From NCBI RefSeq assembly GCF_037948395.1, contig NZ_CP149940.1, positions 3,782,001 to 3,846,000 of the forward strand: a stretch of DNA of 64,000 nt, read 5' to 3'. This document shows positions 6,933-52,790 of the stretch, one piece after another. Both the position numbers and the translations under genes were made by a program. Each line of letters begins with the position of its first letter. Position 1 is the first letter of the stretch. The notes below the pieces were generated by a model. The model saw only the letters and a program-made list of their open reading frames with translations. It had not been told where the DNA came from and made no database searches. The stretch comes from Serratia nevei (lineage in GTDB: Bacteria > Pseudomonadota > Gammaproteobacteria > Enterobacterales > Enterobacteriaceae).

Positions 6933-7181
6933 TGGGTTCACTGCCTTATTACGCAACGCGTGTCGGCGGTTGCCGACGATTGCTCGGAATTGAAAAAAGA
7001 GTGGACGACATTGTATCACCACGCGCTAATTCCTCAACGCCGACACGATATTGCACCGGTCGATTTCGCGCGTTTTGCGGCGAGTTTCGCATAGCGTTGC
7101 GCAAAGAATCGGCGCCGTTGGCGATAATTATCGCGCCCTGCCTAAATTTGCGGCGAACGATTGAAATCATTTTAAAAACCG

Positions 7182-7209
7182 TTGACTCACTTTGAACTAT
7201 CCCTATAAT
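7182..7209 (+). promoter_or_regulatory. Sigma-70 promoter of the valyl/lysyl tRNA operon
   Basis: TTGACT at 7182-7187, 16-bp spacer, TATAAT at 7204-7209, 17 bases before the first tRNA-Val. Near-consensus, as expected for a stable-RNA operon. Confidence 0.9.
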
Positions 7210-7226
7210 GCGACTCCAACAAGACG

Positions 7227-7302
7227 GGGCGATTAGCTCAGTTGGTAGAGCATCTCCTTTACACGGAGGGGGTCGGCGGTTCGAGCCCGTCATCGCCCAC
7301 CA
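7227..7302 (+). tRNA. tRNA-Val(UAC), copy 1
   Basis: 76-nt cloverleaf with encoded CCA. Acceptor GGGCGAT/ATCGCCC, anticodon loop TTTACAC (anticodon TAC), T-arm GGCGGTTCGAGCCC. It differs from copies 2 and 3 only at acceptor pair 4:69 (C-G instead of U-A), a compensated change. It corresponds in position to E. coli valU. Confidence 0.97.
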
Positions 7303-7331
7303 TCTTGTTGAGTAAAAATGAGAACGAATGA

Positions 7332-7407
7332 GGGTGATTAGCTCAGTTGGTAGAGCATCTCCTTTACACGGAGGGGGTCGGCGGTTCGAGCCCGTCATCA
7401 CCCACCA
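7332..7407 (+). tRNA. tRNA-Val(UAC), copy 2
   Basis: 76 nt, acceptor GGGTGAT/ATCACCC, anticodon TAC, encoded CCA; identical to copy 3. The 29-bp spacer from copy 1 has no promoter, so it is part of the same transcript. Corresponds to E. coli valX. Confidence 0.97.
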
Positions 7408-7445
7408 TCATTCTCTCGTTTAGCAGTACCTGGAAGTCCCGAAGT

Positions 7446-7521
7446 GGGTGATTAGCTCAGTTGGTAGAGCATCTCCTTTACACGGAGGGGGTCGGCGGTT
7501 CGAGCCCGTCATCACCCACCA
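7446..7521 (+). tRNA. tRNA-Val(UAC), copy 3
   Basis: 76 nt, same sequence as copy 2, anticodon TAC, encoded CCA. Seven bases separate it from tRNA-Lys. Corresponds to E. coli valY. Confidence 0.97.
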
Positions 7522-7528
7522 CTTCTGC

Positions 7529-7604
7529 GGGTCGTTAGCTCAGTTGGTAGAGCAGTTGACTTTTAATCAATTGGTCGCAGGTTCGAATCCTGCACGACCC
7601 ACCA
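7529..7604 (+). tRNA. tRNA-Lys(UUU)
   Basis: 76-nt cloverleaf, acceptor GGGTCGT/ACGACCC, anticodon loop with TTT, T-arm CAGGTTCGAATCCTG, encoded CCA. Its sequence agrees with E. coli lysV as I remember it. Its last 19 bases begin a 60-bp sequence repeated exactly at 7853-7912. Confidence 0.97.
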
Positions 7605-7912
7605 ATTCAGAGAAAAGCGCCTTTTGGCGCTTTTTTCGTTTCTGCGCCACCTAAACCCGACTTAATCTTCTTGCCGACAGAGTTCACCGAGTCGTGCAGG
7701 ATAAGACAAAAGCATTTATGCTTTTGAACAGCGCTTGCGCTGGCCCGAAGGGGCCGGCTATGAAATAGGCGGATAGCCGTAGAGGTTCGAGCATCGCGCA
7801 GCGATACGACAACGCGCAGCGTTGCCCGCAGGGTGAGGCCACAGGCCGAATCAATCCTGCACGACCCACCAATTCAGAGAAAAGCGCCTTTTGGCGCTTT
7901 TTTCGTTTCTGC
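7586..7912 (+). repeat. 60-bp direct duplication of tRNA-Lys tail plus terminator, enclosing a mini-hairpin array
   Basis: Bases 7586-7645 (last 19 nt of tRNA-Lys with CCA, terminator and following bases) recur without mismatch at 7853-7912. Between the copies, 7691-7702 (GTCGTGCAGGAT) is an inverted copy of 7854-7865, so a 175-bp unit is bounded by 12-bp inverted repeats derived from the tRNA T-arm/acceptor. Inside lies a run of small perfect hairpins: 7708-7725, 7731-7740, 7742-7755, 7755-7779, 7793-7805, 7811-7823, 7825-7833 and 7837-7847, the last four with 3-nt loops. There is no convincing ORF. It recalls the rtT repeat behind E. coli tyrT, which also carries tRNA 3' tails, but I do not recognise this exact element. 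Bases 7913-8075 hold only the fepB promoter and Fur site. Confidence 0.85.
7613..7636 (+). terminator. Terminator of the Val/Lys tRNA operon
   Basis: AAAAGCGCC-TTTT-GGCGC stem followed by T6. An exact second copy, carried in the downstream repeat, lies at 7880-7903. Confidence 0.9.
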
Positions 7913-7963
7913 CGCACTCACTTCCCCTTCTTCTTATTCTCTCTATTCACCACACGCTAAGAT

Positions 7964-7982
7964 ACGAATGGTTATCATTTTG
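7964..7982 (+). promoter_or_regulatory. Candidate Fur box upstream of fepB
   Basis: The core AATGGTTATCATT matches 11 of 13 bases of the Fur core AATGATAATCATT (12 of 19 over the full 19-mer), about 95 bp before the fepB start. The agreement is modest, but the gene function makes iron control expected. Confidence 0.6.
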
Positions 7983-8075
7983 GCGGCTTGAATGGTAAAT
8001 TAGCGGGCATCCACCACGCAGCCAATCCGCCGCCGGATTGATACGCCTTAGTTCAAGGAAAGAAAGAGCCCGCTC

Positions 8076-9083
8076 ATGACCCTATCCTTACGCCAGCTGT
8101 TCATTGCATTTATCGCCACTTCCAGCCTGCTGCTCAGCGGCTGCGGCCCGGACGACAAGAGCGACGGGCAGAAACCGTCCGCCCCCGCCGCCGACAGCAG
8201 TTGGCCGCGCACCATCGACAGCGCCAAAGGGAAGTTCACGCTGGAAAAACCGCCGCAGCGCATCGTGTCCACCAGCGTCACCATCACCGGCACGCTGCTG
8301 GCTATCGACGCCCCGGTGGTCGCCAGCGGCGCCACCAGCCCGAACCCTCTGGTGGCCGATAAACAAGGCTTCTTTACCCAGTGGAGCGAGGTAGCCAAAC
8401 AGCGCCACGTCGAGCGATTGTATCAGGTGGAGCCCAATGCCGAAGCCGTCGCCGCCGCCGCGCCGGATTTGATCGTCGTCGCCGCAACCGGCGGGGATTC
8501 GGCGTTGAAACTGTATGATCAGCTGTCCGCCATTGCGCCGACGCTGGTGCTCGATTATGGCGACAAAAGCTGGCAACAGCTGGCCAGCGAGCTCGGCGAG
8601 ATCACCGGCCATGAAGCCGGCGCCAAACAGGCGGAAGATCGTTTCGAACAGCGCGTGGAGCAAGTGAAGCAGGCGATCGCGCTGCCGCCGCAGCCGACCA
8701 CCCCGCTGGTGTATGCCGACAACGGCCGCGAGGCCATGCTGTGGACACCGGGGTCAGCCCAGGGCAAACTGCTGACCCAGCTCGGCTTCCAACTGGCCAC
8801 CCCGCCGGAAAGCGCCAAAGGCAATGCCAGCATGGGTAAACGCCATGACATCATCCAGATCTCCGGCGAAAAAATGGCCGAGGGCCTGAACGGCAAGACG
8901 CTGATCCTGTTCGCCACCAACGAGCGTAAAGTGCAAGAGGTGCTGACCAACCCGTTCCTCAAACATCTGGAGCCGGTGGAACAGCGGCACGTCTACGCCG
9001 TCGGCAACGACACTTTCCGTCTCGATTACTACAGCGCCACCAACATGCTGAACCAAATCGAACGGCTGTTCAAAAAGCCCTGA
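8076..9083 (+). CDS. fepB: Ferric enterobactin ABC transporter, substrate-binding protein
   Basis: 335 residues. The N-terminus has a signal peptide ending in a lipobox (LLLSGC, Cys near 24), so it may be lipid-anchored in the inner membrane. A periplasmic-binding fold for siderophores follows (FTLEKPPQRIVSTSVTITGTLLAIDAPVVASGA), with the FepB-like features VYQVEPNAEAVAAAAPDLI and DTFRLDYYSATNML. It binds ferric catecholate siderophore and hands it to FepDG. The gene is on the same strand as fepDGC but separated from fepD by a strong hairpin at 9091-9120, so it is probably a separate unit, whereas in E. coli fepB is divergent from fepDGC. Confidence 0.9.
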   Translation: MTLSLRQLFIAFIATSSLLLSGCGPDDKSDGQKPSAPAADSSWPRTIDSAKGKFTLEKPPQRIVSTSVTITGTLLAIDAPVVASGATSPNPLVADKQGFFTQWSEVAKQRHVERLYQVEPNAEAVAAAAPDLIVVAATGGDSALKLYDQLSAIAPTLVLDYGDKSWQQLASELGEITGHEAGAKQAEDRFEQRVEQVKQAIALPPQPTTPLVYADNGREAMLWTPGSAQGKLLTQLGFQLATPPESAKGNASMGKRHDIIQISGEKMAEGLNGKTLILFATNERKVQEVLTNPFLKHLEPVEQRHVYAVGNDTFRLDYYSATNMLNQIERLFKKP

Positions 9084-9090
9084 ACCACGC

Positions 9091-9120
9091 CGTCGGCAGG
9101 CCAGCCTCCTGCCGACGTTT
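9091..9120 (+). terminator. Hairpin after fepB, probable terminator
   Basis: Perfect 10-bp inverted repeat CGTCGGCAGG / CCTGCCGACG with a 7-nt loop, followed by TTT only, so termination may be incomplete. Confidence 0.6.
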
Positions 9121-9297
9121 GCCATAAACAGGGCAACCGTTCACATTCAATCAATTGAAATATCAATAGTTATTAACATCGTCAACGCACCTGCGCCACC
9201 AACCGGCGGGTGCATGCGGGCGTAAACTCGTGCTACTATTAGCGCCCGCATGAACGCAAATAACAATGAGAATAAAAATCATACAGGAGTTACCGGT

Positions 9298-10353
9298 GTG
9301 AACGTACCCACTCCGACTGAGCGGACGCTTTCGTCCGCACCGCACGCAGCTTACGTCAGTGGCTTCAAACGCATCGCCGGGTTCGGTATCGGCTTGGCGC
9401 TGTTGCTGCTGTGCATCATTGCCAGCCTGATGCTGGGTTCCAAAGCCATCCCCTTCCATACCGTCTGGCTCAGCCTGCAGGGCGCCGCGAGCGGTTCCGA
9501 CAGCACCATCATTCTCAACGCCCGGGTACCCCGCACGCTGGCGGGCATCTTGGCCGGCATGGCGCTCGGCGCCGCCGGCGCGCTGATTCAGGCGTTGACG
9601 CGCAATCCGTTGGCCGATCCCGGCGTGCTCGGCATCAACGCCGGCGCCAGCTTCGCCGTAGTCATCGGCATCATGTTTTTCGGCGCGGCCACCACCGAAA
9701 GCTATATGGCCTACGCCTTCGTCGGTGCCGCCCTCACCACCCTGCTGGTCTACCTGATCGGCACGCTGGCGGGCGGGCGCATCAACCCGGTGCGGCTGAC
9801 GCTGGCCGGCGTGGCGATCGGCGCGGTGTTGCTCGGCATCACCACCGGGCTGTCGCTGATCGATCCACAAACCTTCGACCAACTGCGCTTCTGGCAGGCC
9901 GGCACGCTGGATATCCGCACGCTGTCCACGCTGCCGGTTACCGCCCCCGCCATTTTGCTCGGCTGCCTGCTGACGCTGCTCATCGCCCGGCCGCTGAATA
10001 CCATCGGCATGGGGGAAGACCTGGCTATCGCGCTCGGCGCGCGCGTGGTGCTGACTCAGGTCATCGCGGTGATCGCCATCACGCTGCTGTGCGGTGCGGC
10101 GACCGCCACCGTCGGCCCAATCAGTTTCATCGGCCTGATGGTGCCGCATATCGCCCGCTGGTGGGTCGGCCCCGACCAGCGCTGGATCCTGCCCTACTCC
10201 ATGCTGCTGGCGCCGATTTTACTACTGTGCGCCGACGTGGTCGGCCGTTTGCTGGCGGCCGGTGAGCTGCGCGTTTCCATCGTGGCGGCCTTCATCGGCG
10301 CGCCGGTGCTGATCTGGCTGGTGCGCCGCAAGAAAACGCTGGGGGGGCTGTGA
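9298..10353 (+). CDS. fepD: Ferric enterobactin ABC transporter permease FepD
   Basis: FecCD-family inner-membrane permease with about nine to ten hydrophobic helices; the conserved block RVPRTLAGILAGMALGAAGALIQALTRNPLADPGVLGINAGA is unmistakable. The frame is open from an ATG at 9250 (367 residues), but AGGAG at 9285-9289 lies 8 bases before a GTG at 9298 (351 residues), while the ATG at 9250 has no ribosome site and sits close to a -10-like TACTAT at 9234-9239. I therefore prefer the GTG. It pairs with FepG to form the channel. The stop TGA overlaps the fepG ATG by one base, showing tight coupling. Confidence 0.9.
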   Translation: MNVPTPTERTLSSAPHAAYVSGFKRIAGFGIGLALLLLCIIASLMLGSKAIPFHTVWLSLQGAASGSDSTIILNARVPRTLAGILAGMALGAAGALIQALTRNPLADPGVLGINAGASFAVVIGIMFFGAATTESYMAYAFVGAALTTLLVYLIGTLAGGRINPVRLTLAGVAIGAVLLGITTGLSLIDPQTFDQLRFWQAGTLDIRTLSTLPVTAPAILLGCLLTLLIARPLNTIGMGEDLAIALGARVVLTQVIAVIAITLLCGAATATVGPISFIGLMVPHIARWWVGPDQRWILPYSMLLAPILLLCADVVGRLLAAGELRVSIVAAFIGAPVLIWLVRRKKTLGGL

Positions 10354-11390
10354 TGAGTCTGCCCCACACGTTGCATATCGGCCGCCCGGACGGCGTCATC
10401 AACTGGCGTATGCCGCTGCGCCTGCTGCTGGTCAATCTTTCGCTGCTGGCGTTGTGCCTGGCGATGGCGGTTGCCGCGCTGTGCTACGGCACGCTGCAGC
10501 TTTCGCTGGAACAGGTCTTTGCCGCGCTCAGCGGCGAGGCGCCGAAAAATCTGGTCACCGTGGTTACCCAATGGCGCTTGCCGCGTATCGCCATGGCGCT
10601 GCTGTTAGGCGGCGCACTCGGCATGAGCGGCGCCATCTTCCAGTCGATTATCCGCAACCCGCTCGGCAGCCCGGACGTGATTGGCTTTAACATGGGGGCT
10701 TACACCGGCGCGCTGATCGCCATCACCCTGTTCAACGGCGGCTATTACTACATCGCCGGCGGTGCGCTGGCCGGCGGCATTCTCTCCGCGCTTGCCATCT
10801 ACCTGCTGGCCTGGCGCCAGGGCATCGCCGGCTTCCGGCTGATCATCGTCGGCATCGCCATCAGCGCGGTGCTGGTCTCCACCAATACCTGGCTGATCAT
10901 CACCGCCTCGCTAGAGCGCGCCATGGACGCCGCCATGTGGCAGGCCGGTTCACTCAACGGCATGACCTGGCAGAAAGCCCAGCCCGCTACGGCATTCATC
11001 GTGTTGGCGGCCGCGGCCGCGCTGCTGATGGGCAAACGGCTGCAGCTGCTGGAAATGGGCGACGACACGGCGCGCGCACTGGGCGTGAACGCCGAAGGCA
11101 GCCGGCTGTGGCTGATGCTGTTCGGCGTCACCCTCACCGCCGCCGTCACCGCCACCGCCGGGCCGATTTCCTTTATCGCGCTGGCGGCGCCGCAGATCGC
11201 CCGCCGCCTGGCCGGACAATCCTCGGTCACCCTGACGTCCTCGGCGCTGATGGGCGCGACGCTGCTGCTCGGCGCCGACGTGGTGTCCCAACATCTTTTT
11301 GCGCCGATCCAACTGCCGGTCGGGGTCGTGACCGTCTGCATCGGCGGCCTGTACCTGATTTGGCTGCTCATCCGTGAGGCCCGCAGATAA
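10353..11390 (+). CDS. fepG: Ferric enterobactin ABC transporter permease FepG
   Basis: 345 residues from ATG 10353, one base overlapping fepD; a GTG at 10350 is an alternative. Second FecCD-type permease: WRLPRIAMALLLGGALGMSGAIFQSIIRNPLGSPDVIGFNMGAYTGA is the conserved domain start, and GPISFIALAAPQIARRL is the EAA-like loop that contacts the ATPase. It forms a heterodimer with FepD to move ferric enterobactin across the inner membrane. Third gene of the fep group; its stop overlaps the fepC start by one base. Confidence 0.93.
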   Translation: MSLPHTLHIGRPDGVINWRMPLRLLLVNLSLLALCLAMAVAALCYGTLQLSLEQVFAALSGEAPKNLVTVVTQWRLPRIAMALLLGGALGMSGAIFQSIIRNPLGSPDVIGFNMGAYTGALIAITLFNGGYYYIAGGALAGGILSALAIYLLAWRQGIAGFRLIIVGIAISAVLVSTNTWLIITASLERAMDAAMWQAGSLNGMTWQKAQPATAFIVLAAAAALLMGKRLQLLEMGDDTARALGVNAEGSRLWLMLFGVTLTAAVTATAGPISFIALAAPQIARRLAGQSSVTLTSSALMGATLLLGADVVSQHLFAPIQLPVGVVTVCIGGLYLIWLLIREARR

Positions 11391-12214
11391 TGAAAAGTGA
11401 TAACGCCATGAGCCACCGCCTGCACGCCTCGCACCTGAAGCTGGGCTACGACAATAAAATCATCGCTGACGATCTGAGCGTGGCGATCCCCGACGGTGCC
11501 TTCACGGTGATCGTCGGGCCGAACGCCTGCGGCAAATCGACGCTGCTGCGCGCCCTGTGCCGTCTGCTGAAACCCAGCGCCGGCGAGGTGATGCTGGACG
11601 GCAAAAACATCAGCAGCTTCGCCACCAAGGCGCTGGCGCGCGAGCTTGGGCTGCTGCCGCAAACTTCGATCGCACCGGACAGCATTACCGTGGCGGACCT
11701 GGTATCGCGCGGCCGCTATCCGCACCAGAGCCTGCTGAAACAGTGGACGCAGGCCGACAAACAGGCGGTGGAAGCCGCCATGGCGGCCACCAACGTCAGC
11801 CAGTTGGCGGACCGCAGCGTCGACGAGCTGTCCGGCGGGCAGCGCCAGCGCGTTTGGGTGGCGATGGCGTTGGCGCAGCAAACGCCGCTGCTGCTGCTGG
11901 ATGAACCGACCACCTATCTGGACATCGCGCACCAAATCGAGCTGCTGGATCTGTTCCGCCAGCTCAACCGCGAGCACGGCCAAACCCTCATCGCGGTGCT
12001 GCACGATCTCAACCACGCCTGCCGCTATGCCGATCACATCATCGCCATGCGCGACGGCAAGATCGTGGCGGAGGGGAACCCGGCGGAAATCATCACCGCC
12101 GAGCTGGTGGAACGGGTGTTCGGCATGCCGTGCATGATCATCGACGATCCACTGTCCCACACGCCGCTGGTGATCCCGCGCGGCCGCTACCACTGCGACG
12201 CGCCGCAGGCATGA
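11390..12214 (+). CDS. fepC: Ferric enterobactin ABC transporter ATPase FepC
   Basis: 274 residues, close to E. coli FepC (271). Walker A is GPNACGKST near residue 43 (the usual Gly is Ala here), the ABC signature is LSGGQRQRVW, Walker B is LLLLDEPTTYLDI, and the switch His lies in VLHDLNHACRYADHI. It powers FepDG from the cytoplasm. The start ATG overlaps the fepG stop; a second in-frame ATG (MSHRLHAS) lies 18 bases downstream. It is the last gene of fepDGC and is followed by a strong terminator. Confidence 0.94.
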   Translation: MKSDNAMSHRLHASHLKLGYDNKIIADDLSVAIPDGAFTVIVGPNACGKSTLLRALCRLLKPSAGEVMLDGKNISSFATKALARELGLLPQTSIAPDSITVADLVSRGRYPHQSLLKQWTQADKQAVEAAMAATNVSQLADRSVDELSGGQRQRVWVAMALAQQTPLLLLDEPTTYLDIAHQIELLDLFRQLNREHGQTLIAVLHDLNHACRYADHIIAMRDGKIVAEGNPAEIITAELVERVFGMPCMIIDDPLSHTPLVIPRGRYHCDAPQA

Positions 12215-12241
12215 AAAAGGCCGGGTTACCCCGGCCTTTTC
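12214..12241. terminator. Bidirectional terminator between fepC and the DppA-like gene
   Basis: GGCCGGG/CCCGGCC stem with A5 on the left and T4 on the right, between convergent genes. Confidence 0.85.
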
Positions 12242-12242
12242 G

Positions 12243-13829
12243 TTACTTCTCCAGCGACACCTGCTTGAAGATGTGTTTGCCGAACGGGTCTATCTCGTAG
12301 CCTTTCACTTCCTTGCGCACCGGTTCGAAGATGGTCGAGTGCGCGATCATCAGCGCCGGCATCTGATCGTGCATCATCACCTGCGCCTGCTGGTACATCG
12401 CCACCCGCTTGGCGTGATCGTTCTCCTCGCGCGCCTGCAGGATCAGCTGGTCGAACGGTTTGTAGCACCATTTCGCCGAGTTGGAGCCGCCGAGCGAAGC
12501 GCAGGTGAACAGCGGGCCGAAGAAGTTGTCCGGATCGCCGTTGGCGGTGGTCCAGCCCATCAGCGCCGTCTGGTGCTCGCCGTTTTTAATCCGCTGCAAA
12601 TATTCGCCCCATTCGAAGGTGACGATTTTGGCGCGCACGCCGATCTTGGCCCAGTCGGCCTGGATCATCTCCGCCATGCGCTTGGCGTTGGGGTTATAGG
12701 GTCGCTGCACCGGCATCGCCCACAGATCGATGTCAAACCCCTGCCCCAGCCCGGCTTCCTGCAACAGCTGCTTCGCCCGCTCCGGCGAATACGGGTAGTC
12801 TTCAAGCTGCGCGTTGCTGCCCCACTGGGTCGGCGGCAGCAGGTTCTTGGCCGGCTGGCCGGCGCCGTGGAACACCGCCTCGATGATCGCCGGCTTGTTG
12901 ACCGCCAGCGCCAACGCCTGGCGTACCTTGACGTTATCCAACGGTTTTTTCTGGGTATTAAACGCCAGGAAGCCGATATTCAAGCCGGATTTTTCCATCA
13001 CCTGAAGGTTGCCGTCCTGCCGCATGCGCGCCAGATCCGCCGGGTTGGGGAACGGCATCACCTGGCACTCGTTCTTTTGCAGCTTGGCGTAACGCACCGT
13101 CGCATCCGGCGTGATCGAAAACACCAGCCGATCGATCTTCGGTTTGCCTTCCCAGTAGCGGTCGAACGCCTTGTACAGGATTTTCGCGTCCTTCTGGTAC
13201 TGCACCAGCTGGAACGGCCCGGTGCCTATCGGATCGTTGTCCACCCGCTGCGGCGCACCGGCCTTCAGCATCGCGTCGGCATATTCCGCCGAAAAAATAG
13301 TGGCGAAGTACATGCCCAGATCGGCGACGAACGGCGCCTCGGCGCGGGAGAGCTCAAAGCGCACGGTGTGATCGTCCACCTTGACGATCCGGTCGATCAG
13401 CGTGCCGAACTCCATCGACTCGAAGTTGGTGTAGGCGCCGTTGGAGACCTTGTGATACGGGTTGTTGGCGTCCTTTTGTCGCATAAACGAGAAGATGACG
13501 TCATCGGCGTTGAAATCGCGGGTAGGCGTGAAATATTTATTGCTCTGGAATGCCACGCCCTTGCGCAGGTGGAAGGTATAGCGCTTGCCGTCCTCGCTCA
13601 CTTCCCAGCTTTCCGCCAGGCTGGGTTGCAGCTCGACGGTACCGGGTTTGAAGTCCACCAGCCGGTTGTAGATCGCCGCCGAACTGGCGTCCACCGTGGT
13701 GCCGGAGGTGAACAGCTGCGGGTTGAAGCCTTCCGGCGAGCCTTCGGAACAGTAGACCAGCGTATTGGCCCGCGCGCCGCCGGCAATCACCAACGCCAGC
13801 AGCCCGATCGTTATTGCTTTTCTTTTCAT
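12243..13829 (-). CDS. Periplasmic peptide-binding protein, DppA-type (SBP family 5)
   Basis: The start was placed at 13829 (MKRKAITIGLLALVIAGGARA is a clean signal peptide, GGGGAT just upstream); the open frame extends 35 codons further without signal-peptide logic. The result is 528 residues, the usual DppA length. It matches E. coli DppA closely by memory: TLVYCSEGSPEGFNPQLFTSG right after the signal peptide, NADDVIFSFMRQKDANNPYHKVS, KNECQVMPFPNPADLARM, and HSTIFEPVRKEVKGY at the end. DppA delivers dipeptides (in E. coli also heme) to DppBC. Here no dppBCDF genes adjoin it, so it is an orphan binding protein, presumably sharing a permease encoded elsewhere. Its position next to fepC may be chance. 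Confidence 0.88.
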   Translation of the reverse strand: MKRKAITIGLLALVIAGGARANTLVYCSEGSPEGFNPQLFTSGTTVDASSAAIYNRLVDFKPGTVELQPSLAESWEVSEDGKRYTFHLRKGVAFQSNKYFTPTRDFNADDVIFSFMRQKDANNPYHKVSNGAYTNFESMEFGTLIDRIVKVDDHTVRFELSRAEAPFVADLGMYFATIFSAEYADAMLKAGAPQRVDNDPIGTGPFQLVQYQKDAKILYKAFDRYWEGKPKIDRLVFSITPDATVRYAKLQKNECQVMPFPNPADLARMRQDGNLQVMEKSGLNIGFLAFNTQKKPLDNVKVRQALALAVNKPAIIEAVFHGAGQPAKNLLPPTQWGSNAQLEDYPYSPERAKQLLQEAGLGQGFDIDLWAMPVQRPYNPNAKRMAEMIQADWAKIGVRAKIVTFEWGEYLQRIKNGEHQTALMGWTTANGDPDNFFGPLFTCASLGGSNSAKWCYKPFDQLILQAREENDHAKRVAMYQQAQVMMHDQMPALMIAHSTIFEPVRKEVKGYEIDPFGKHIFKQVSLEK

Positions 13830-43513: not shown

Positions 43514-44898
<1,385 letters not shown>

Positions 44899-44920: not shown

Positions 44921-47161
44921 TTAGAAGCGCACCTCCCCGCCGAAGATATAGGTGCGTCCACGGGCAGTGTTGGTCGGCGTCTCATACTGCGACTGCGACG
45001 GCAGCGAGTTCATCTTGTTCAGCGCGTCCGAGTAGTCTTTGTCCATCAGGTTTTGCACGCTGAGCTTTAGCAGCAGATTGCGATTCACCTGATAGGTGCC
45101 GTACAGATCGATAATGGTCGGAATATGCGGCGCCGGCTCTTTCAGCAACTGCTCATTCTCATCGTAATCAGAGTCCGGCGACAGGCGCACCGATTTGCCG
45201 GTGTATTTCACTACCCCGCCCAGCGTCAGTTTCTCGTCCAGCAAGCGTACCCCGCTGTCCAGCGTGAAGTAGAATTCCGGCAGTTCGCTGACATCGCCCG
45301 CGCCGAACACGTTGCTAGCCTGGTTGGTCGGCTGGGAGGTATGCTCCTTGCTTAACGACAGCTTGGTGAAGGCGAAACCGGCGTCGTACAGCGCTTCGAG
45401 CTCCACCCCGCGCATTTTGACCGGTTCGGGGGCGTTACTGTACATGGTCATGCTGACGTTGACGTCCGCGTTATCCCACTCTTCCTGCGTCGCCTGCGAG
45501 CGGTTGCACTTCTGGCGGTTTTTACACACCAGGTAGGTTTGGCTGGATATGTAGTTTTTGATTCTGGTTTCGAAATAGACCGCTTTCAGCTGGAAACTGT
45601 CCTGCTTGAACAACAGATCGTGGGCATTGGCATTGAAACCGCCCTGCCAGGTCTCCGCTTTTTCGCCCTTCAGGAACGGGTTCATCGACTGGCCGCCGCT
45701 GTTGGCGAAGAACACCTCCTGGATATTCGGCCCGCGCATCGACTTGCTGTAGCTGACGAACGGCTGCAGCCACGGCGTCACCTGCGCCGACAGCATGACC
45801 GACGGGTTGAAGCCGTGTTCGTTGCGGTTGATATTGCCGGCACCCTGCGGGAAGCACTCCACGCGCTCGTCACAGGCTGGCTTATAGCCGGAGAGGCGAT
45901 AGGCGGTGTAGTTCAGATCGAAATTCCCCTGCCAGATGCCGTAGTTGGCCTGCAACCCGCTATACAGGCTGGAAATATCTTGCTTGCCCGACATTCCCAC
46001 CGGCATGCTTTCCGCCTGATTGTCATCCGTCACCAAACCGGAGGCCTTTTTCTTATACTCGTTGCGCACCAGTTTACCGCCGTAGCTGAAGGCGAAATCG
46101 ACATCCTGCAGGCTGAAACGGCTGGTGTTGTTGATATCCAGCGCATCAGAGATGTTTTTCGCCGTGCTGTCGCTAAAGCCCGCCATGTTGTTGGACATGA
46201 ATTTCTGCTCACCCCGGCTGGTGCTGGCGGTCAGGTTGAAATCGATCAGTTCCGAGAACGGCGCGTAGTGATACTTAAGGTAAAAATCGTCGCTGTCGAT
46301 GTGGCGGCGGGTGATTTTATTCTGGTAGCTGCGCGCCGACAGTTCGATGCTGTTAAAGGCATCCGGCTTGATGTCCACCTTGAACAGCTGGGATTTCGGG
46401 TTCTGGCGGTAGGTTTTATCGACGTTGAACACCTCGCTGTCGAAACCGGCGCCGTTTTTGTAGTTGGAGGTGATGGAACTGCCGCTGATCGCCGCCATCG
46501 CCCCCAGGCTGCCGCCGTCGGCAAAGGCGGCGGTTTTGGCGCCCACGGCGATCATGCCGCTGCGGCCGATGCCGTTATTGCCCACCGAGAATTTGGTGCG
46601 CACGCCGAACGGGTTATCGGAAAACACCACGTCGTCCACGCCGATAGTGCGGAAGTTGGCGCTACCCGCCAGAGCGTTCACCCCAGCGGAGCCGGTGGCA
46701 TTGCCGCGCGCCACGTCGACGCCGACGATAAAGTTAGGATCGATCAGCGCCCCGAACTGGCTGGTGGGCAATCCCCCGTGCGCTGCGTCGCTCGGCGAGT
46801 TGCCGTAGTAGTTTTGCGTGATGCCGTCGACCATGGTGTTGACCCGGCCAAAGCCGCTCAGGCCGCGGATATTGACGCTGACCGAACCCTGGCCGGGATC
46901 GATCTGGGTATAGGTGCCCGGCATACTGCGCAGAATGCTGTCCACCGACTCCAGATTCTTGTTTTCATCGCGCGAGCTGAACGCGCCTGGCCTCGCCAAC
47001 GCGTCTTTTTCGCTGCTTTTGCCGCTGTCGGCGGCCGAGACGTTGAGCGGGCTGAACGCCACGCTGCCTTTATTATTTTCCGCCTGTTCCTGCGCGGCCG
47101 CAGCCGGCCCGTACAGCGCCAGTCCCGCGCCGATCAGGCTCGCTATCATTTTGATTTTCAT
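44921..47161 (-). CDS. TonB-dependent outer-membrane receptor, heme/iron type
   Basis: 746 residues, signal peptide about 1-23 (ending AAAAQ). Plug domain with SRDENKNLESVDSILRSMPGTYTQIDPGQGSVSVNIRGLSGFGRVNTMVDGITQNY, NPNFIVGVDVARG-type strand and ALAGSANFRTI, then a 22-strand barrel ending YIFGGEVRF with the C-terminal Phe. SMRGPNIQEV ... NPFLKGEKAETW matches the FRAP...NPxL boxes found in heme and siderophore receptors. A Cys-rich extracellular loop is visible (ACDERVECFPQG, VCKNRQKCNRSQ). It is not HasR (about 900 residues) and I cannot name its ligand. Downstream of the TonB paralogue and the exported oligopeptidase on the same strand; a Cys-loop and context suggest a protein or heme-protein ligand, as inference. 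Confidence 0.88.
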   Translation of the reverse strand: MKIKMIASLIGAGLALYGPAAAAQEQAENNKGSVAFSPLNVSAADSGKSSEKDALARPGAFSSRDENKNLESVDSILRSMPGTYTQIDPGQGSVSVNIRGLSGFGRVNTMVDGITQNYYGNSPSDAAHGGLPTSQFGALIDPNFIVGVDVARGNATGSAGVNALAGSANFRTIGVDDVVFSDNPFGVRTKFSVGNNGIGRSGMIAVGAKTAAFADGGSLGAMAAISGSSITSNYKNGAGFDSEVFNVDKTYRQNPKSQLFKVDIKPDAFNSIELSARSYQNKITRRHIDSDDFYLKYHYAPFSELIDFNLTASTSRGEQKFMSNNMAGFSDSTAKNISDALDINNTSRFSLQDVDFAFSYGGKLVRNEYKKKASGLVTDDNQAESMPVGMSGKQDISSLYSGLQANYGIWQGNFDLNYTAYRLSGYKPACDERVECFPQGAGNINRNEHGFNPSVMLSAQVTPWLQPFVSYSKSMRGPNIQEVFFANSGGQSMNPFLKGEKAETWQGGFNANAHDLLFKQDSFQLKAVYFETRIKNYISSQTYLVCKNRQKCNRSQATQEEWDNADVNVSMTMYSNAPEPVKMRGVELEALYDAGFAFTKLSLSKEHTSQPTNQASNVFGAGDVSELPEFYFTLDSGVRLLDEKLTLGGVVKYTGKSVRLSPDSDYDENEQLLKEPAPHIPTIIDLYGTYQVNRNLLLKLSVQNLMDKDYSDALNKMNSLPSQSQYETPTNTARGRTYIFGGEVRF

Positions 47162-47253
47162 ATATCCCCAGAAATAGCCAATAAGGTTTGATGGCCGACA
47201 ATGCCCAGCAAAAAGCCCGCTGAAAGCGCGGTAAAAGGTTGTTATTGTTTTAT

Positions 47254-47275
47254 TGCGCCGCAGCGTGCTGCGGCG
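47254..47275 (-). other. Hairpin between the oligopeptidase and receptor genes
   Basis: GCGCCGCAG-CGTG-CTGCGGCGC, a perfect 9-bp stem in the 121-bp gap between the two genes, with no T tract on the minus strand. It may reduce or shape readthrough, or protect mRNA ends, in an operon where downstream dosage matters. Confidence 0.5.
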
Positions 47276-47282
47276 CTAAAGG

Positions 47283-49409
47283 TTATTTCTGCGCCTGCCG
47301 GTCCGCCGCCAGAATAAAGGCGTACTCCAGCGCGCCGTTTTCCAGCCGCGCCAGGCGGCCCGATTTGCCGCCGTGGCCGGCGGTCATGTCGGTGGAGAGC
47401 AGCAGCAGCGAATCGCCCTGCTTGAAGCGCCGCAGCTTCGCCACCCATTTGGCCGGCTCCCAATACTGCACCTGGGAGTCGTACAAGCCGCTGGTAACCA
47501 GCAGGTTCGGGTAACGCTGCTTGCGCACGTTGTCGTACGGGCTGTAGGACTTCATCAGCGCATAGGCGGCCGGCTGGTGCGGGTTGCCCCACTCCTCGTA
47601 TTCCCCGGTGGTCAGCGGAATGCTGTCGTCCAGCATGGTGGTCACCACGTCGACGAACGGCACCTGCGCCACCACCGCGTTGTACAGCTGCGGCGCCTGA
47701 TTGATCACCGCCCCCATCAGCAAGCCGCCGGCGCTGCCGCCCATGGCGTAGATGCGCCCCGGCTGGCCGTAGCCGTCTTTGATCAGCGCCTGGGTGGCAT
47801 CGATGAAGTCGTTGAAGCTGTTCGGTTTATGCGTCAGCTTGCCCTGTTTGTACCAGCTCTGCCCCAGCTCGCCGCCGCCGCGCACGTGGATCAGCGCATA
47901 GACGAAGCCGCGATCCAGCAGGCTGATGCGGTTGGCGCTGAACGCCGGATCCATGCTCATGCCGTAAGCGCCGTAGCCGTACACCAGCAGCGGGTTATGC
48001 CCGTTTTTGAACAGCGATGTGCGGTACACCAGCGAGACCGGCACCTTCACGCCGTCGCGCGCCGTGACCCAGATGCGCTCGCTGTGATACAGGCTCGGAT
48101 CGACGCCTTTCACCTCCTGCTGCTTCAGCAGGGTGCGCTCGCCCTTGTCCAGATCCCACTCATAGGTGCGGGTCGGCGTGGTCATCGCCGAATAGCCGTA
48201 GCGCAACCGATCGCTGTCCGGCTCCGGGTTATAGCCCAGCCAGGCCATGTAGCTGGCGTCATCGAACGGGATGGTGCGCTCGGTTTTACCGTCCCAGCTG
48301 ATTTGCCGCAGCTGCACCAGCCCGTTGGCGCGCTCCTGCACCACCAGCCAGTCGCGGAACAGGCTGAAGCTCTCCACCTCGTGCTGCGCCTGCGGCGCGA
48401 TCAGCGTCTGCCAGGGTTTGCCCGCCGCCGCCGTGCGGTACAGGCCAAAGTTCGGATCCTGATGGTTAGAACGCAGGTAGAACTCGCCGCGGTAGTGATC
48501 GAGGTAATACTCGCGGCCGTTCTGCCGGGCGGCGAACAGCTGCGGCTCGCGCTGCGGCTGGTTGGCGTCGATCAGGCGCACCTCGGAGGTGGTGTTACCG
48601 CTGATGGTCAGAATCAGGTAATCGCGCGAGGACGAGCGGCCGAGGCTGAGGTAGAACGCCGGATCGTTTTCCTGGTACACCAGCTTATCTTCCGCCGTCG
48701 GCGTACCGTACTGATGGCGATAAACCTGGTATGGCAACAGCGTTTGCGGGTGGTTGCGCACGTAGAACAGGGTTTGGTTGTCGTTGGCCCACACCATGTT
48801 GCCGGAGGTGTTTTCCAGCGTTTCCGGCGACCAGCGTTCGCTGCCTATCTCACGCAGGGAGATGCGGTATTGGCGGCGGCCCTGCAGATCTTCGGCCACC
48901 GCCAGCCGGCGGTTGTCCTGGCTGACGTCCATCGCCCCCAGGCGATAGTAGGCGTGGCCGGCCGCGCGCTGATTGGCGTCCAGCAAGGTTTGCCACGGCG
49001 CGTCGGCGGTGAGCGCCTGGCGCTGATACAGCGCGAAATCTTTACCGGCGGCGTAGCTTTCCTGATAGCGATAGCCGTTGAGTTGATACGGCACCGAACG
49101 ATCGTCAGGGTTCATGCGGCCCAGCATCTCCTGATACAGCGTGGCGCGCAGCTTCTGGTACGGCGCCATCATCTGCTCGGTGTAGCGGTTCTCCGCCTTC
49201 AGGTAGTCCAGCACCTTCGGCTCTTTTCGGCTGTCGTCGCGCAGCCAGTAGTAATCGTCGGTGCGCGTCTCGCCGTGCGCCGTCAGCGCTTTCGGCGCGC
49301 GTTCCGCCAATGGCGGCTGCGGTTGCGCCAGCGCGGCGCCGGCGATACCTAAAGAAAGCCAGAGCGCGGCCGCGATGCGACGGCGCGGGGTGAATAACAG
49401 CGGATTCAT
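47283..49409 (-). CDS. Exported S9A peptidase, oligopeptidase B (protease II) family
   Basis: 708 residues. Residues 1-28 look like a cleavable signal peptide (TPRRRIAAALWLSLGIAGAALA), whereas E. coli PtrB is cytosolic and lacks one. A seven-bladed propeller follows (about 40-440: DDYYWLRDDSRKEPKVLDYLKAENRYTE, LGAMDVSQDNRRLAVAEDLQGRRQY), then the alpha/beta hydrolase: GHNPLLVYGYGAYGMSMDP, HVRGGGELGQSWYKQGK, nucleophile Ser559 in MGGSAGGLLMGAVINQ, Asp in SGLYDSQVQYWEP, His in TAGHGGKSGR. It should cleave short peptides after Arg/Lys. It sits 121 bp before the TonB-dependent receptor and 54 bp after the TonB paralogue, which suggests periplasmic processing of an imported substrate. Confidence 0.88.
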   Translation of the reverse strand: MNPLLFTPRRRIAAALWLSLGIAGAALAQPQPPLAERAPKALTAHGETRTDDYYWLRDDSRKEPKVLDYLKAENRYTEQMMAPYQKLRATLYQEMLGRMNPDDRSVPYQLNGYRYQESYAAGKDFALYQRQALTADAPWQTLLDANQRAAGHAYYRLGAMDVSQDNRRLAVAEDLQGRRQYRISLREIGSERWSPETLENTSGNMVWANDNQTLFYVRNHPQTLLPYQVYRHQYGTPTAEDKLVYQENDPAFYLSLGRSSSRDYLILTISGNTTSEVRLIDANQPQREPQLFAARQNGREYYLDHYRGEFYLRSNHQDPNFGLYRTAAAGKPWQTLIAPQAQHEVESFSLFRDWLVVQERANGLVQLRQISWDGKTERTIPFDDASYMAWLGYNPEPDSDRLRYGYSAMTTPTRTYEWDLDKGERTLLKQQEVKGVDPSLYHSERIWVTARDGVKVPVSLVYRTSLFKNGHNPLLVYGYGAYGMSMDPAFSANRISLLDRGFVYALIHVRGGGELGQSWYKQGKLTHKPNSFNDFIDATQALIKDGYGQPGRIYAMGGSAGGLLMGAVINQAPQLYNAVVAQVPFVDVVTTMLDDSIPLTTGEYEEWGNPHQPAAYALMKSYSPYDNVRKQRYPNLLVTSGLYDSQVQYWEPAKWVAKLRRFKQGDSLLLLSTDMTAGHGGKSGRLARLENGALEYAFILAADRQAQK

Positions 49410-49463
49410 AATCCCTCACGAAGTTTGAAGAGGCGCACGACGGCGATGCGGCGCCTGCGGGCA

Positions 49464-50261
49464 TTAACGGCGGGCATTCAGCTCCGCCAGATTGAAATCG
49501 ATCGGCATCGTCACCTTGACGGCTCCCTGCTGCAGCATCTCCGGCGGCGGCGGCGGCAACGGCTGGGCGCGTGACACCACCGCCACCGCTTCCCGATCCA
49601 GCGACGCGGTGCCGGAACGCACCTGCAGCATGACGTTCGAGACCCGCCCCTGCGCGTCGACGCTGAAGCTGACCTGCGGCATGCCGCTGCGCCGGCGGCT
49701 GCGGGCATCCAAAGGATAATCCTTGATGCGGTTCAGTTTGCCTTTCACCAGGCTCTCCCACGACAGTTTGGCCTGCGCGTTGCTGTTGGCGTCGCTGTTG
49801 ATCGGTGCGGCGGTCTGATGGGAAAGCGTCTGCGCCTGCGGCGCGGCGGCGCTGGACGCGGCGGCATTGCGCGTCTCTTTGGCCTGTTCCTGCGGCTTCG
49901 GCTGCGATTTTTGCGGGGGGCGGTGTTCGGCGCGCTTCTTCTGCGCCGTCACGATTTTCGCATTCTCGGCGCGCGCCAGCTTGGGCAGATCCGGCTGTTG
50001 CTGCTGCTCCGCAGGCTGCGCCGCGGCGGATTCCGCCTGCTGCACGCCCAGCGGCAGCGGCTTGCTTTCCGGCGCTTCAATCTGCGCCGCCCAGCTCATC
50101 ATCACCGCCGGCGGTGGCAGTACCACCGGCTCCAGCGCCGTCTGCGGCCAGTAAAACAGCAGCACCAACGCCGCGTGCGCCGCCAGGGCGAGCAGCAGGC
50201 CGCGCGCCCAGCGCGGCTGCGGCAGTTCAAAGGCCGGGAGGGAGTAAGACTGACTTAACAT
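49464..50261 (-). CDS. TonB-family energy transducer (TonB paralogue)
   Basis: 265 residues from the ATG at 50261; the open frame extends 22 codons into the Fur box and is rejected. N-terminal anchor helix (ARGLLLALAAHAALVLLFYWP, with the His seen in TonB anchors), a Pro/Gln/Lys-rich periplasmic linker, and a C-terminal TonB domain: YPLDARSRRRSGMPQVSFSVDAQGRVSNVMLQVRSGTASLDREAVAVVSRAQPLPPPPP. Length is close to that of S. marcescens HasB, but no has genes are here, so it is a dedicated transducer for the receptor at 44921-47161, or a HasB-like spare. A strong Fur box lies at 50307-50325, 46 bp upstream. Confidence 0.88.
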   Translation of the reverse strand: MLSQSYSLPAFELPQPRWARGLLLALAAHAALVLLFYWPQTALEPVVLPPPAVMMSWAAQIEAPESKPLPLGVQQAESAAAQPAEQQQQPDLPKLARAENAKIVTAQKKRAEHRPPQKSQPKPQEQAKETRNAAASSAAAPQAQTLSHQTAAPINSDANSNAQAKLSWESLVKGKLNRIKDYPLDARSRRRSGMPQVSFSVDAQGRVSNVMLQVRSGTASLDREAVAVVSRAQPLPPPPPEMLQQGAVKVTMPIDFNLAELNARR

Positions 50262-50306
50262 AGGGGCATTAGCTTGCTTAATTGCGAATGATTGCAGATC
50301 ACATTT

Positions 50307-50325
50307 ACTAATGATAATCATTTGC
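50307..50325 (-). promoter_or_regulatory. Fur box upstream of the TonB paralogue
   Basis: Contains the exact core AATGATAATCATT (50310-50322); 15 of 19 positions match the Fur consensus. It lies between the chaN-like stop and the TonB start, giving a second iron-controlled entry into the block. Confidence 0.85.
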
Positions 50326-50363
50326 AACTATAATTAACACCCCTTTTCACTGTCTTAACGTAT

Positions 50364-51206
50364 TCATTTCACTGATGGTGTGATCCACAGGTAGTCTGCG
50401 GTGTTCGCATCGACCTGTACGCCCGGCTCCGCCAACATCAGCACCGTCGGCGCCGCCGCCGGTTGCAGATCCCGCACGTGCAGCGGCACCCCCACCGATT
50501 TGGCGGCGTGATAGCCACCGGCGATCAGCAGCGCGGGCGTCGGCGCCGCCAGCAGACGTTCCGCCATGCGCCGGTCGCGCTGCTGCTGGATCGCCAACAT
50601 CGCCTGCAGCTGGTCGGCCTCAATCTGGCCGCCGTGCGAAGTGCGGATGGTCTCTTCCAGCGCCTTGCGCACCGCCGGCTGCGCCGATAGCTGCCCCGCC
50701 GGGAACTGTGGCTGCTGATAGAACGCCGTAATCTCGCTGCGATCCAGGTTGGCCGACCACAGCGGGTAAGGCGCGCGCATCGCCGCCATCGTCACCCCGC
50801 CATACAGCTCCCACTTCCAGCCCGGCTGCCAGGCGATCAGCTCCGCTACGCGGCCGTCACGCACCGTGGGATCGCTCTGCAACCACTGCTTGACCTTGTC
50901 GACCTGCGCCTGTTGGTTCGGGTTGATCATCTCCATCAGCACGCTGCCCTGCGGCCGCCGCAGCGGCAGCTGCTGCACCAGCCATTGCTCAATCTGATGG
51001 TGGTAAGGATTATCATGCTTCTCCCCCAGGATCACCCGCGGCTGCTGCGCCAGCCGCGTCAACAGCTGCTCAGGCGTCAGGGTCGCGCCGCTGTGCAGAT
51101 CGGTGATGCTCCCCAAACTCGCGACGTCGTTGGCCGGCGCCTTCACCGGCGCCTGGCTGCAGGCGCCGAGCGCCAACGCCGCCAATAAAATCAGGTATCT
51201 CATCAT
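50364..51206 (-). CDS. ChaN-family iron-regulated lipoprotein
   Basis: 280 residues. Lipoprotein signal (MMRYLILLAALALGAC, Cys16). VILGEKHDNPYHHQIEQWLVQQL, with acidic and His residues, is the conserved ChaN/EreA-like motif, followed by VLMEMINPNQQAQVD, GWKWELYGGVTMAAM, NLDRSEITAFY and ALLIAGGYHAAKSVGVPLHVRDL. Campylobacter ChaN is an iron-regulated heme-binding lipoprotein that sits next to heme-uptake genes. First gene of the block, led by a Fur box at 51239-51257. Its location beside a TonB-dependent receptor, a TonB paralogue and an exported peptidase suggests handling of heme from an imported ligand. Confidence 0.85.
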   Translation of the reverse strand: MMRYLILLAALALGACSQAPVKAPANDVASLGSITDLHSGATLTPEQLLTRLAQQPRVILGEKHDNPYHHQIEQWLVQQLPLRRPQGSVLMEMINPNQQAQVDKVKQWLQSDPTVRDGRVAELIAWQPGWKWELYGGVTMAAMRAPYPLWSANLDRSEITAFYQQPQFPAGQLSAQPAVRKALEETIRTSHGGQIEADQLQAMLAIQQQRDRRMAERLLAAPTPALLIAGGYHAAKSVGVPLHVRDLQPAAAPTVLMLAEPGVQVDANTADYLWITPSVK

Positions 51207-51238
51207 GTTGCCCCATTATCGAAAATGGCGACATTATA

Positions 51239-51257
51239 GATAATAATTATCATTTGC
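51239..51257 (-). promoter_or_regulatory. Fur box upstream of the chaN-like gene
   Basis: The 19-mer agrees at 15 of 19 positions with the Fur consensus (GATAAT...TATCATT visible), 33 bp before the chaN-like ATG. Confidence 0.82.
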
Positions 51258-51340
51258 ATATAGATCCGACTTAACGATTTTTTTACGCACCGATCGCCGG
51301 CTGCGCATTGCGTTGAAAAAGCATTGCGGGTATAACCAAT

Positions 51341-51372
51341 AGCCATTCAGATATTTAGACGTCTATACGGAT
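51341..51372 (+). promoter_or_regulatory. MetJ operator array upstream of mmuP
   Basis: AGACGTCT at 51357-51364 is a perfect met box. Adjacent 8-mers match less well: 51349-51356 (5 of 8), 51365-51372 (5 of 8) and 51341-51348 (4 of 8). This is the tandem layout MetJ needs, ending 8 bases before the mmuP ATG, so S-adenosylmethionine-MetJ would repress the operon. Confidence 0.8.
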
Positions 51373-51380
51373 AGATTATT

Positions 51381-52790
51381 ATGCAACCATCGGCACCCGC
51401 CGCAGGACAGTTCAAACGCAGCATGAAGGCCCGGCACCTGGTGATGCTGTCGCTGGGCGGCGTGATCGGCACCGGACTGTTTTTCAACACCGGCTACATC
51501 ATCTCCACCACCGGGGCGCTCGGCACGCTGCTGGCCTACCTGATCGGTGCGCTGGTGGTGTATCTGGTGATGCTGTGCCTGGGCGAGCTGTCGGTGGCGA
51601 TGCCGGAAACTGGCGCTTTTCACGTCTATGCTTCGCGCTATCTGGGGCCGGCCACCGGCTATGCCGTCGCCTGGCTGTATTGGCTCACCTGGACGGTGGC
51701 GCTCGGCTCCAGCCTGACCGCCGCCGGATTCTGCATGCAGTACTGGTTCCCGCAGTCGCCGGTGTGGCTGTGGTGCCTGATCTTCTGCGCGGCCATTTTC
51801 CTGCTCAACGTGGTGACCACCCGCTTTTTCGCCGAAAGCGAATTCTGGTTTTCGCTGATCAAAGTGGTGACCATTCTGGCGTTTATCATTCTGGGCGGCG
51901 CCGCCATGTTCGGCCTGCTGCCGATGAAAGACGGCACGCCGGCGCCGTTCCTGCATAACCTGACCGCTTCCGGCTGGCTGCCGCACGGCACGCTGCCGAT
52001 CCTGATGACCATGGTGGCGGTGAACTTCGCCTTCTCCGGTACGGAGCTGATCGGCATCGCCGCCGGTGAAACCGAGAACCCGGAAAAAGTCGTGCCGCTG
52101 GCGATCCGCACTACGGTGATCCGCCTGATGCTGTTCTTTATCGGTACGGTCTTCGTGCTGGCGGCGTTGATCCCGATGGATCAGGCGGGGATCGTCAAAA
52201 GCCCGTTCGTGCTGGTGTTTGAACGCATCGGCGTGCCTTACGCCGCCGATATCTTCAACTTCGTGATCCTGACCGCCATCCTGTCGGCGGCCAACTCCGG
52301 CCTGTACGCCTCGGGGCGCATGCTGTGGTCGCTGGCCCACCAGCGCACCCTGCCGGCCTACTTTGCGCGCGTCAATGCGCGCGGCATTCCGATCAACGCC
52401 CTGACCTTCAGCATGCTCGGCGGCGTGCTGGCGCTGCTGACCAGCGTGATCGCACCGGACACGGTGTTCGTCGCCCTGTCGGCGATCTCCGGTTTTGCGG
52501 TAGTAGCGGTGTGGCTGAGCATCTGCGCGGCCCACTTTGCTTTCCGCCGCGCCTACCTGCGCAGCGGCCAGCCGATAAGCGGCCTGAAATACCGCGCGCC
52601 CGGCTACCCGCTGACGCCGATCCTCGGCTTTGCGCTGTGCCTGCTGGCCTGCATCGGGCTGGCGTTCGATCCGGAGCAGCGCATTGCGCTCTACTGCGGG
52701 CTGCCGTTCGTCGCCTTGTGCTACCTCACCTATTTCCTGACCCGGCGCGCCGGGCAAAAAACCGCTTTGGGAGAACAACATGTCGGTTAA
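51381..52790 (+). CDS. mmuP: S-methylmethionine permease
   Basis: 469 residues, about twelve membrane helices, amino acid-polyamine-organocation family. Marker segments: [31 protein letters not shown] (substrate-binding first helix), [48 protein letters not shown]. The neighbour mmuM and the MetJ operator identify it as the S-methylmethionine carrier rather than another member such as lysine or GABA permease. Its 3' end overlaps mmuM by 11 bp. Confidence 0.95.

Follow-up and report, generated by a model that had tools for sequence, protein, structure and literature searches.

A chromosomal cjrABC-type locus of Serratia that carries an oligopeptidase B-like peptidase gene

A total of 64,000 nucleotides from a Serratia marcescens-group chromosome (genome G000; this whole stretch is hereafter called the window) was analysed for a four-gene block whose products are a lipoprotein of the ChaN family, a TonB paralogue, an S9A oligopeptidase and a TonB-dependent receptor. 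Receptors of the nearest named relatives are 97-99% identical to that of the window. Comparative analysis of related loci revealed that the four genes are one inherited unit. Judged from its sequence, the core of this unit is a chromosomal cjrABC-type uptake operon, and the peptidase is its new part as far as the literature was searched. As for function, the proposal that the block, under the control of Fur, takes up a ligand bearing heme or iron, the peptide part of which would be trimmed by a periplasmic peptidase, is in our estimate evenly balanced.

Conservation of the locus and its cjrABC-type core

Genomes for the surveys were drawn from a larger group and the best few candidates per genome were scored (two in most of one survey); absences are not proven. 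In one scan the order chaN-tonB-S9A-receptor was the same in all 14 loci (10 Serratia and four Rahnella), and the stretches examined at the Rahnella loci gave no match to any of the seven genes that flank the block in Serratia. In the family of the window, which we take to be Enterobacteriaceae in the GTDB sense, the receptor was found at an E-value of 1e-120 or better in 27 of 256 genomes; with G248 and five genomes from a second draw (14 of 196 with the receptor) these gave a set of 33 genomes. The genes for ChaN, TonB and the receptor occur together in all 33 neighbourhoods, the receptor frame being shortened in one genome (G900). Nine loci (L037, L038, L189, L190 and L195-L199) have the block near maeB as in Serratia, without the intervening mmuPM pair. 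Among Pasteurellaceae the receptor was found at 1e-90 or better in 30 of 140 genomes (the receptor of one locus, L043, is identical in sequence to that of Spirabiliibacterium falconis), and an S9A relative at 1e-50 or better in seven of the 140, each time directly beside the receptor gene. The neighbourhoods of 27 of the 30 (all except G742, G743 and G800) hold ChaN in 27, TonB in 10, the S9A gene in seven, Slam in four and a SenB-like gene in none.

The initial annotation of this DNA had named scattering of the four genes among relatives as an outcome that would speak against a joint role. They are not scattered: all 61 loci surveyed have ChaN in the same cluster as the receptor, and the peptidase gene, where present, lies directly upstream of the receptor gene, also at different genomic sites. 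A chance neighbourhood is rejected on the evidence of the loci in Serratia, Rahnella, other members of the family and Pasteurellaceae.

Relatives of the receptor were found on 559 plasmid records, 514 of them from Escherichia. On a K. michiganensis plasmid the annotated order is iron-regulated protein, TonB, receptor and TieB (senB); compared with this copy, the receptor of the window is 59%, its ChaN 54% and its TonB 44% identical. The cjrABC-senB operon and the window block share the same-strand order chaN (cjrA)-tonB (cjrB)-receptor (cjrC) and a predicted Fur box before the first gene. They differ in location, cjrABC-senB being carried on plasmids of E. coli, Shigella and Klebsiella whereas the window genes are chromosomal, and in content, the window having an S9A gene between tonB and the receptor gene. 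No senB/TieB gene follows the window receptor, where the next gene is yaiI on the opposite strand, and the sole YncE-like match at 1e-20 in the genome itself is 29% identical and lies elsewhere.

In the parts of the published account that were consulted, cjrABC-senB is a proposed iron-uptake operon with a functional Fur box upstream and repression by iron, CjrA is likened to PhuW of heme uptake, and the operon, which many extraintestinal E. coli carry on their virulence plasmids, is linked to urinary infection (PMC7412671). The same account and a second, likewise consulted in part, describe CjrC with CjrB as the entry route of colicin Z and report the same for colicin Js (PMC7412671, PMC6668396). 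According to the latter, cjrBC confer sensitivity to colicin Z, for which exbB and exbD are required and tonB is not (PMC6668396). By analogy, this need for cjrB lends weight to the earlier view that the TonB paralogue of the window may be private to its receptor. The further view that the exact set of genes was undescribed does not stand for three of the four, which correspond to cjrABC, and can stand for the peptidase version only; novelty can therefore rest on the peptidase alone. No description of the peptidase-bearing version or of its alternation with SenB was found in the accessible parts of the literature searched on ChaN, cjr and oligopeptidase B.

All four reading frames are open on the minus strand from 51206 to 44921 (Table 1), and the gaps along ChaN-TonB-S9A-receptor are 102, 54 and 121 bases. 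Frames, domain profiles and a signal-like N-terminus of the peptidase agree with the first description of the block as same-strand genes for ChaN, TonB, an S9A enzyme with a signal peptide and a receptor. The ChaN protein, which has both the family profile and a lipobox, matches the structure 2g5g (E 2.3e-28) and keeps E62, H64, H70, E92, Y135, D211 and H233 in all 62 loci. In the heme-binding ChaN lipoprotein the heme ligand is a tyrosine, and the invariant Tyr135 of the window is a candidate for this residue. The TonB paralogue, for which the list of open reading frames also holds a longer TTG start at 50327, has HasB (2m2k, E 4.5e-23) as its sole solved-structure match; its C-terminal domain is 49% identical over 92 residues to that of the genome's own HasB and 55% identical to a plasmid CjrB-type domain. 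The genome contains one ChaN, five TonB-domain proteins and two OpdB-like (oligopeptidase B-like) peptidases (1e-50), the copy outside the block (C1:2062226-2064262) being without a signal-like N-terminus.

Table 1. Genes of the block and predicted Fur-like boxes (window positions).
Feature	Position	Strand	Length or score	Assignment
ChaN-family lipoprotein (CjrA/PhuW-like)	50364..51206	-	280 aa	PF04187, 125 bits (cut-off 27.7); lipobox LGAC
TonB paralogue, HasB/CjrB-like C-terminal domain	49464..50261 (ATG start)	-	265 aa	TonB_C over cut-off
S9A oligopeptidase-B-like peptidase	47283..49409	-	708 aa	Peptidase_S9_N and Peptidase_S9 over cut-off
TonB-dependent receptor, CjrC type	44921..47161	-	746 aa	Plug and barrel domains over cut-off
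Fur-like box before ChaN	51239..51257	-	16/19
Fur-like box before TonB	50307..50325	-	15/19

Several further observations concern the locus and its surroundings. A hemF gene (coproporphyrinogen oxidase; named from an annotated relative) lies at 43523-44443 of the window on the opposite strand, beyond yaiI and the receptor, and is probably unrelated. A 276-kb record filed as an S. proteamaculans plasmid (L212, NZ_MT039221.1) holds the block in a chromosomal neighbourhood (maeB, mmuPM, hemF, amiA, cysTW); its receptor is 65% identical and its other block genes 75-84%, so that the receptor may have been exchanged. Phylum-wide, the receptor was found at 1e-50 in 10 of 398 genomes, and the two most distant loci fetched (L055 and L056, receptors about 30% identical) gave no match for ChaN or the peptidase. 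Three loci of another gammaproteobacterial family (L052-L054) have the order receptor-ChaN-TonB and receptors about 30% identical in frames of 1026-1134 residues, and receptors of Janthinobacterium, Massilia and Iodobacter are 55-58% identical (P0098-P0120).

The peptidase and its SenB-like counterpart

The window peptidase matches oligopeptidase B at an E-value of 4e-278 and has the beta-propeller, hydrolase domain, Ser-Asp-His triad and S1 glutamic acid of that enzyme. Its score against the NCBIfam equivalog PRK10115 (950.1 of 1313 bits) is below the cut-off, which indicates a relative and not the cytosolic orthologue. The residues that we take to be the catalytic triad (S559, D644 and H679) and the first S1 glutamic acid (E603) are conserved throughout the 28 block copies aligned, the triad down to 38% identity to the window peptidase. 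The second acidic S1 position varies (glutamic acid in 17, aspartic acid in seven, glutamine and alanine in two each), and specificity may therefore differ in some copies. The alignment leaves out a broken copy (L145) and two near-copies (L181 and L183), and the peptidases of L212 and L218-L222 are not part of it. The broken copy belongs to a Pasteurellaceae locus with ChaN, S9A, receptor and lipoprotein genes (genome G838, 6244-12505) in which peptidase, receptor and lipoprotein are each in two pieces, probably a decaying copy. A hydrophobic N-terminal segment was found in all 30 block copies extracted (peak of at least 1.8) as against at most 0.97 in seven cytosolic copies. From the signal-like segment and the complete active site we infer a periplasmic, active peptidase. 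In the peptidase tree, which has some long branches, a well-supported branch separates the block copies from the cytosolic copies and from those of a further family (f25). Peptidase and receptor genes overlap by four bases in four of 29 measured loci; gaps elsewhere reach 564 bases.

Analysis of the 33 loci in the family of the window revealed that each contains exactly one of two genes. The S9A gene lies between tonB and the receptor gene in 25 and a SenB-like gene follows the receptor gene in eight; no locus has both and none has neither. The SenB-like proteins comprise 389-438 residues as called, begin with a hydrophobic segment and are 68-99% identical to annotated TieB. They resemble YncE (PDB 3vgz, E 1e-25; YncE model 156 bits against a cut-off of 400), and family scans found no peptidase domain in them. 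Among 28 of the 33 genomes that were searched, relatives at least 64% identical to the SenB-like protein of L039 occur only in the eight SenB genomes, and other YncE-like proteins are at most 32% identical to it. Each of the eight SenB genomes has one OpdB-like copy, outside the block. In nine of 20 peptidase-type genomes searched (G177, G286, G910, G918, G954, G964, G1019, G1022 and G1052) the block copy is the sole OpdB-like gene at 1e-50, with no cytosolic-type copy.

A receptor tree was built from 57 of 62 rows, leaving out L181 and L183 (near-copies of L012 and L014) and L145, L156 and L191 (frames of at most 650). It contains at least three changes between the peptidase and SenB states on well-supported branches, with L182 and L041, which sit on long branches, involved. 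A sign test on the swap had three independent pairs, all three as expected (p 0.25), too few for significance.

The presence of a SenB-like beta-propeller in place of the peptidase in related loci suggests that both probably serve the same step differently. On the plasmid record senB is still annotated as an enterotoxin; gene order and signal sequence suggest that SenB/TieB may read better as a periplasmic partner of uptake than as a toxin. A tentative extension, which we consider possible yet short of probable, is that cjr-type loci exist in two interchangeable builds, SenB/TieB being a periplasmic uptake helper that handles the ligand without cutting as the peptidase does by cutting. The shared element might also be the propeller itself, which in OpdB and in the YncE-like SenB would dock at the receptor or carry the ligand, cutting being secondary. 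The single propeller protein per locus, the repeated swaps, the YncE match and the hydrophobic N-terminal segments of both proteins speak for such a role. However, a pure scaffold would have no need of the triad and first S1 glutamic acid that every aligned copy retains, and 20 of the 27 Pasteurellaceae loci have neither gene; we regard a propeller role as decidedly unlikely.

Regulation, receptor and probable ligand

Fur-like sites were scored against a 19-base consensus, with 20 Markov-simulated windows as background. The sites before ChaN and TonB are the two best in the 64 kb. Simulated windows had a mean of 0.25 sites of at least 14 matches and none of at least 15, and five further sites in the window reach 14/19 (25418, 42515, 50996, 51002 and 51233). 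The initial annotation had scored both boxes at 15/19; both are present, and the one before ChaN scores 16/19. A box of at least 14/19 precedes ChaN in 51 of 62 loci (near-copies included), which supports the predicted control by Fur, and precedes TonB in 15 of 45. The best Zur-like site within 50201-51400 matched 14 of 23 positions of the consensus used. As the sites are Fur-like rather than Zur-like, iron or heme is favoured over zinc.

Residue counts for the receptor are alignment-based and refer to 54 sequences (the 57 tree rows without L052-L054). Cysteine-containing loops, proposed earlier for this receptor, were seen as the pair C430/C436, kept in 54 of 54, and the pair C546/C552, kept in 35 and 32. 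In HasR-type receptors heme is bound by two histidines, of which the first belongs to the plug loop and the second to an outer loop. A histidine of the plug apical loop (H128 in the window) is present in all 54 receptors and falls in the column of HasR precursor H233, equal to mature H189 by the 44-residue difference between 909 and 865, which we take to be the plug-loop heme ligand of HasR. In Pasteurellaceae, HmuTUV-like genes for an ABC importer (binding protein, FecCD permease, ATPase) were found in 16 of the 27 loci and a TbpB-like lipoprotein (by BLAST) in 14; lipoprotein and importer accompany six of the seven peptidase loci, the seventh ending at a contig edge. Among representatives scanned, the permease and Slam scored over their Pfam cut-offs and the lipoprotein did so in one of four. 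The best curated match of the importer ATPase is a heme ABC model (252.6 of 261 bits), and hits of the binding protein to the BtuF and IsdE models score far under their cut-offs. The plug-loop histidine and the FecCD/heme-type importers beside the Pasteurellaceae relatives make heme the likelier ligand; with the ChaN family and the HasB-like TonB added, these sequence features point to heme or a heme-bearing molecule as the probable ligand. Another iron ligand is conceivable but doubtful. For a candidate orthologue of the receptor, the TonB-dependent receptor PMI1548 of P. mirabilis, detection is reported solely in vesicles obtained from artificial urine (PMC11578119).

The best solved relative of the window receptor, both by sequence (E 4.5e-84) and by fold (E 1.4e-33, from a poor model), is TdfH of Neisseria gonorrhoeae. 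HasR is also among the top fold matches, and TdfH, HasR and ChuA are the nearest receptors, all of which strip a small ligand at the surface. A first guess from a match to PDB 9oaa, that the receptor is a relative of HphR, was rejected, the fold search naming TdfH. Since TdfH is a zinc/calprotectin receptor, the window receptor might likewise strip zinc or some other metal from a protein of a host or a rival, with ChaN and the peptidase serving stress or peptide clean-up. Such metal piracy is improbable: the boxes are not Zur-like, the ChaN family and the importers of FecCD type speak for heme or siderophores, and the plug histidine common to all 54 relatives is absent from TdfH in the alignment. 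With TdfH as the nearest solved structure, heme is no more than a likely ligand.

Further points join the TdfH match in weighing against heme uptake coupled to peptide trimming. The receptor structure model has a mean pLDDT of 58, with the plug below 50, and was used for ranking fold neighbours only. No histidine was found in the window receptor at the second HasR ligand loop, and heme-receptor models stayed below their cut-offs (250 of 316.85 bits for TIGR01785 and 201.8 of 323.75 for another). The Pasteurellaceae ABC proteins scanned are below curated NCBIfam cut-offs, and the Serratia block has no ABC genes. CjrA is reported to occur in the inner-membrane fraction and, when expressed, to weaken the outer membrane (PMC7412671). 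This speaks neither for nor against heme carriage. The peptidase, absent from eight of 33 loci in the family of the window and from 20 of 27 in Pasteurellaceae, is dispensable. Moreover, S9A relatives in family f25 (61-63% identical to that of the window; L087-L096) have N-termini that look signal-like by eye; in some copies the hydrophobicity measure falls to about 0 at the lowest, as their called starts lie too far upstream. They may represent another exported lineage without linkage to the block. In 10 of 10 loci examined (of 21), neither ChaN, TonB nor a receptor of this kind lay near them: the enzyme family in general has no fixed link with this receptor.

Known systems, proposed mechanism and meaning

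Comparison with the Has heme system of Serratia revealed likenesses in the HasB match of the TonB paralogue, the plug histidine in the HasR column and the place of HasR among the top fold matches. Unlike Has, the four-gene block contains no hemophore or exporter, its receptor is shorter (746 against 909 residues in HasR), and it adds a peptidase and ChaN. The Slam-linked heme-receptor systems HphR/HphA and HrpA/HrpC pair receptor and TonB in the published loci, as far as these were consulted, and the Pasteurellaceae relatives carry TbpB-like lipoprotein and Slam genes in the numbers given above; neither gene is found in the Serratia block. A search for Slam in the genome of the window also gave no match, which carries no weight since control genomes gave none either.

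In the Fus system of Pectobacterium a receptor, a TonB-like protein and a periplasmic M16 protease, FusC, are reportedly encoded together. The window block likewise unites a receptor, a TonB paralogue and a periplasmic-type protease, and the cjr relatives admit whole colicins in the accounts partly consulted. On first inspection of the block it had been suggested that an entire protein or a peptide might be imported and digested, much as Fus does with ferredoxin. Import of a whole protein finds no support here and is very improbable: the protease is S9A and not M16, ChaN is present in addition, and the nearest receptors strip their ligand at the surface. Moreover, OpdB-type enzymes cut short peptides after arginine or lysine, so that a folded protein is an unlikely substrate.

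In the mechanism that we propose, Fur would leave the boxes before chaN and tonB when iron is scarce, as the boxes and cjrABC suggest, and the genes would be made. At the cell surface the receptor would bind a ligand that bears heme or iron, presumably energised by its own TonB in the way reported for its relatives CjrB and CjrC, and ChaN may hold heme in the periplasm or hand it on. The S9A enzyme would cut a short peptide part of the ligand, or peptides that accompany it, thereby releasing the ligand or clearing its path; this step is the least certain. Fitting substrates would be a small peptide chelator or peptides that proteases of the host or of bacteria have left with heme. In related loci the SenB/TieB-like beta-propeller probably serves the step of the peptidase in another way.

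The peptidase could alternatively be a bodyguard, with no nutritional part, that destroys peptide toxins or host peptides entering through the receptor. The colicin Z route through CjrC and CjrB and the report for colicin Js, from sources seen in part, fit this role, as do the adjoining peptidase and receptor genes and the preference of OpdB-type enzymes for short basic peptides. Colicins are, however, too long for OpdB, and a SenB-like protein without a detected peptidase domain does not fit a shared guard role. We consider it unlikely.

No ligand of cjrABC-senB is named in the parts of the literature consulted (PMC7412671), and a peptidase whose chemistry is known offers a way to approach both the ligand and SenB. 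The version with a peptidase for senB suggests that the fourth gene acts on the cargo of the receptor, the ligand being testable by way of the peptidase substrate. With this block, the periplasmic peptidases tied to one TonB-dependent receptor would come from two protease families, S9A as well as the M16 of Fus.

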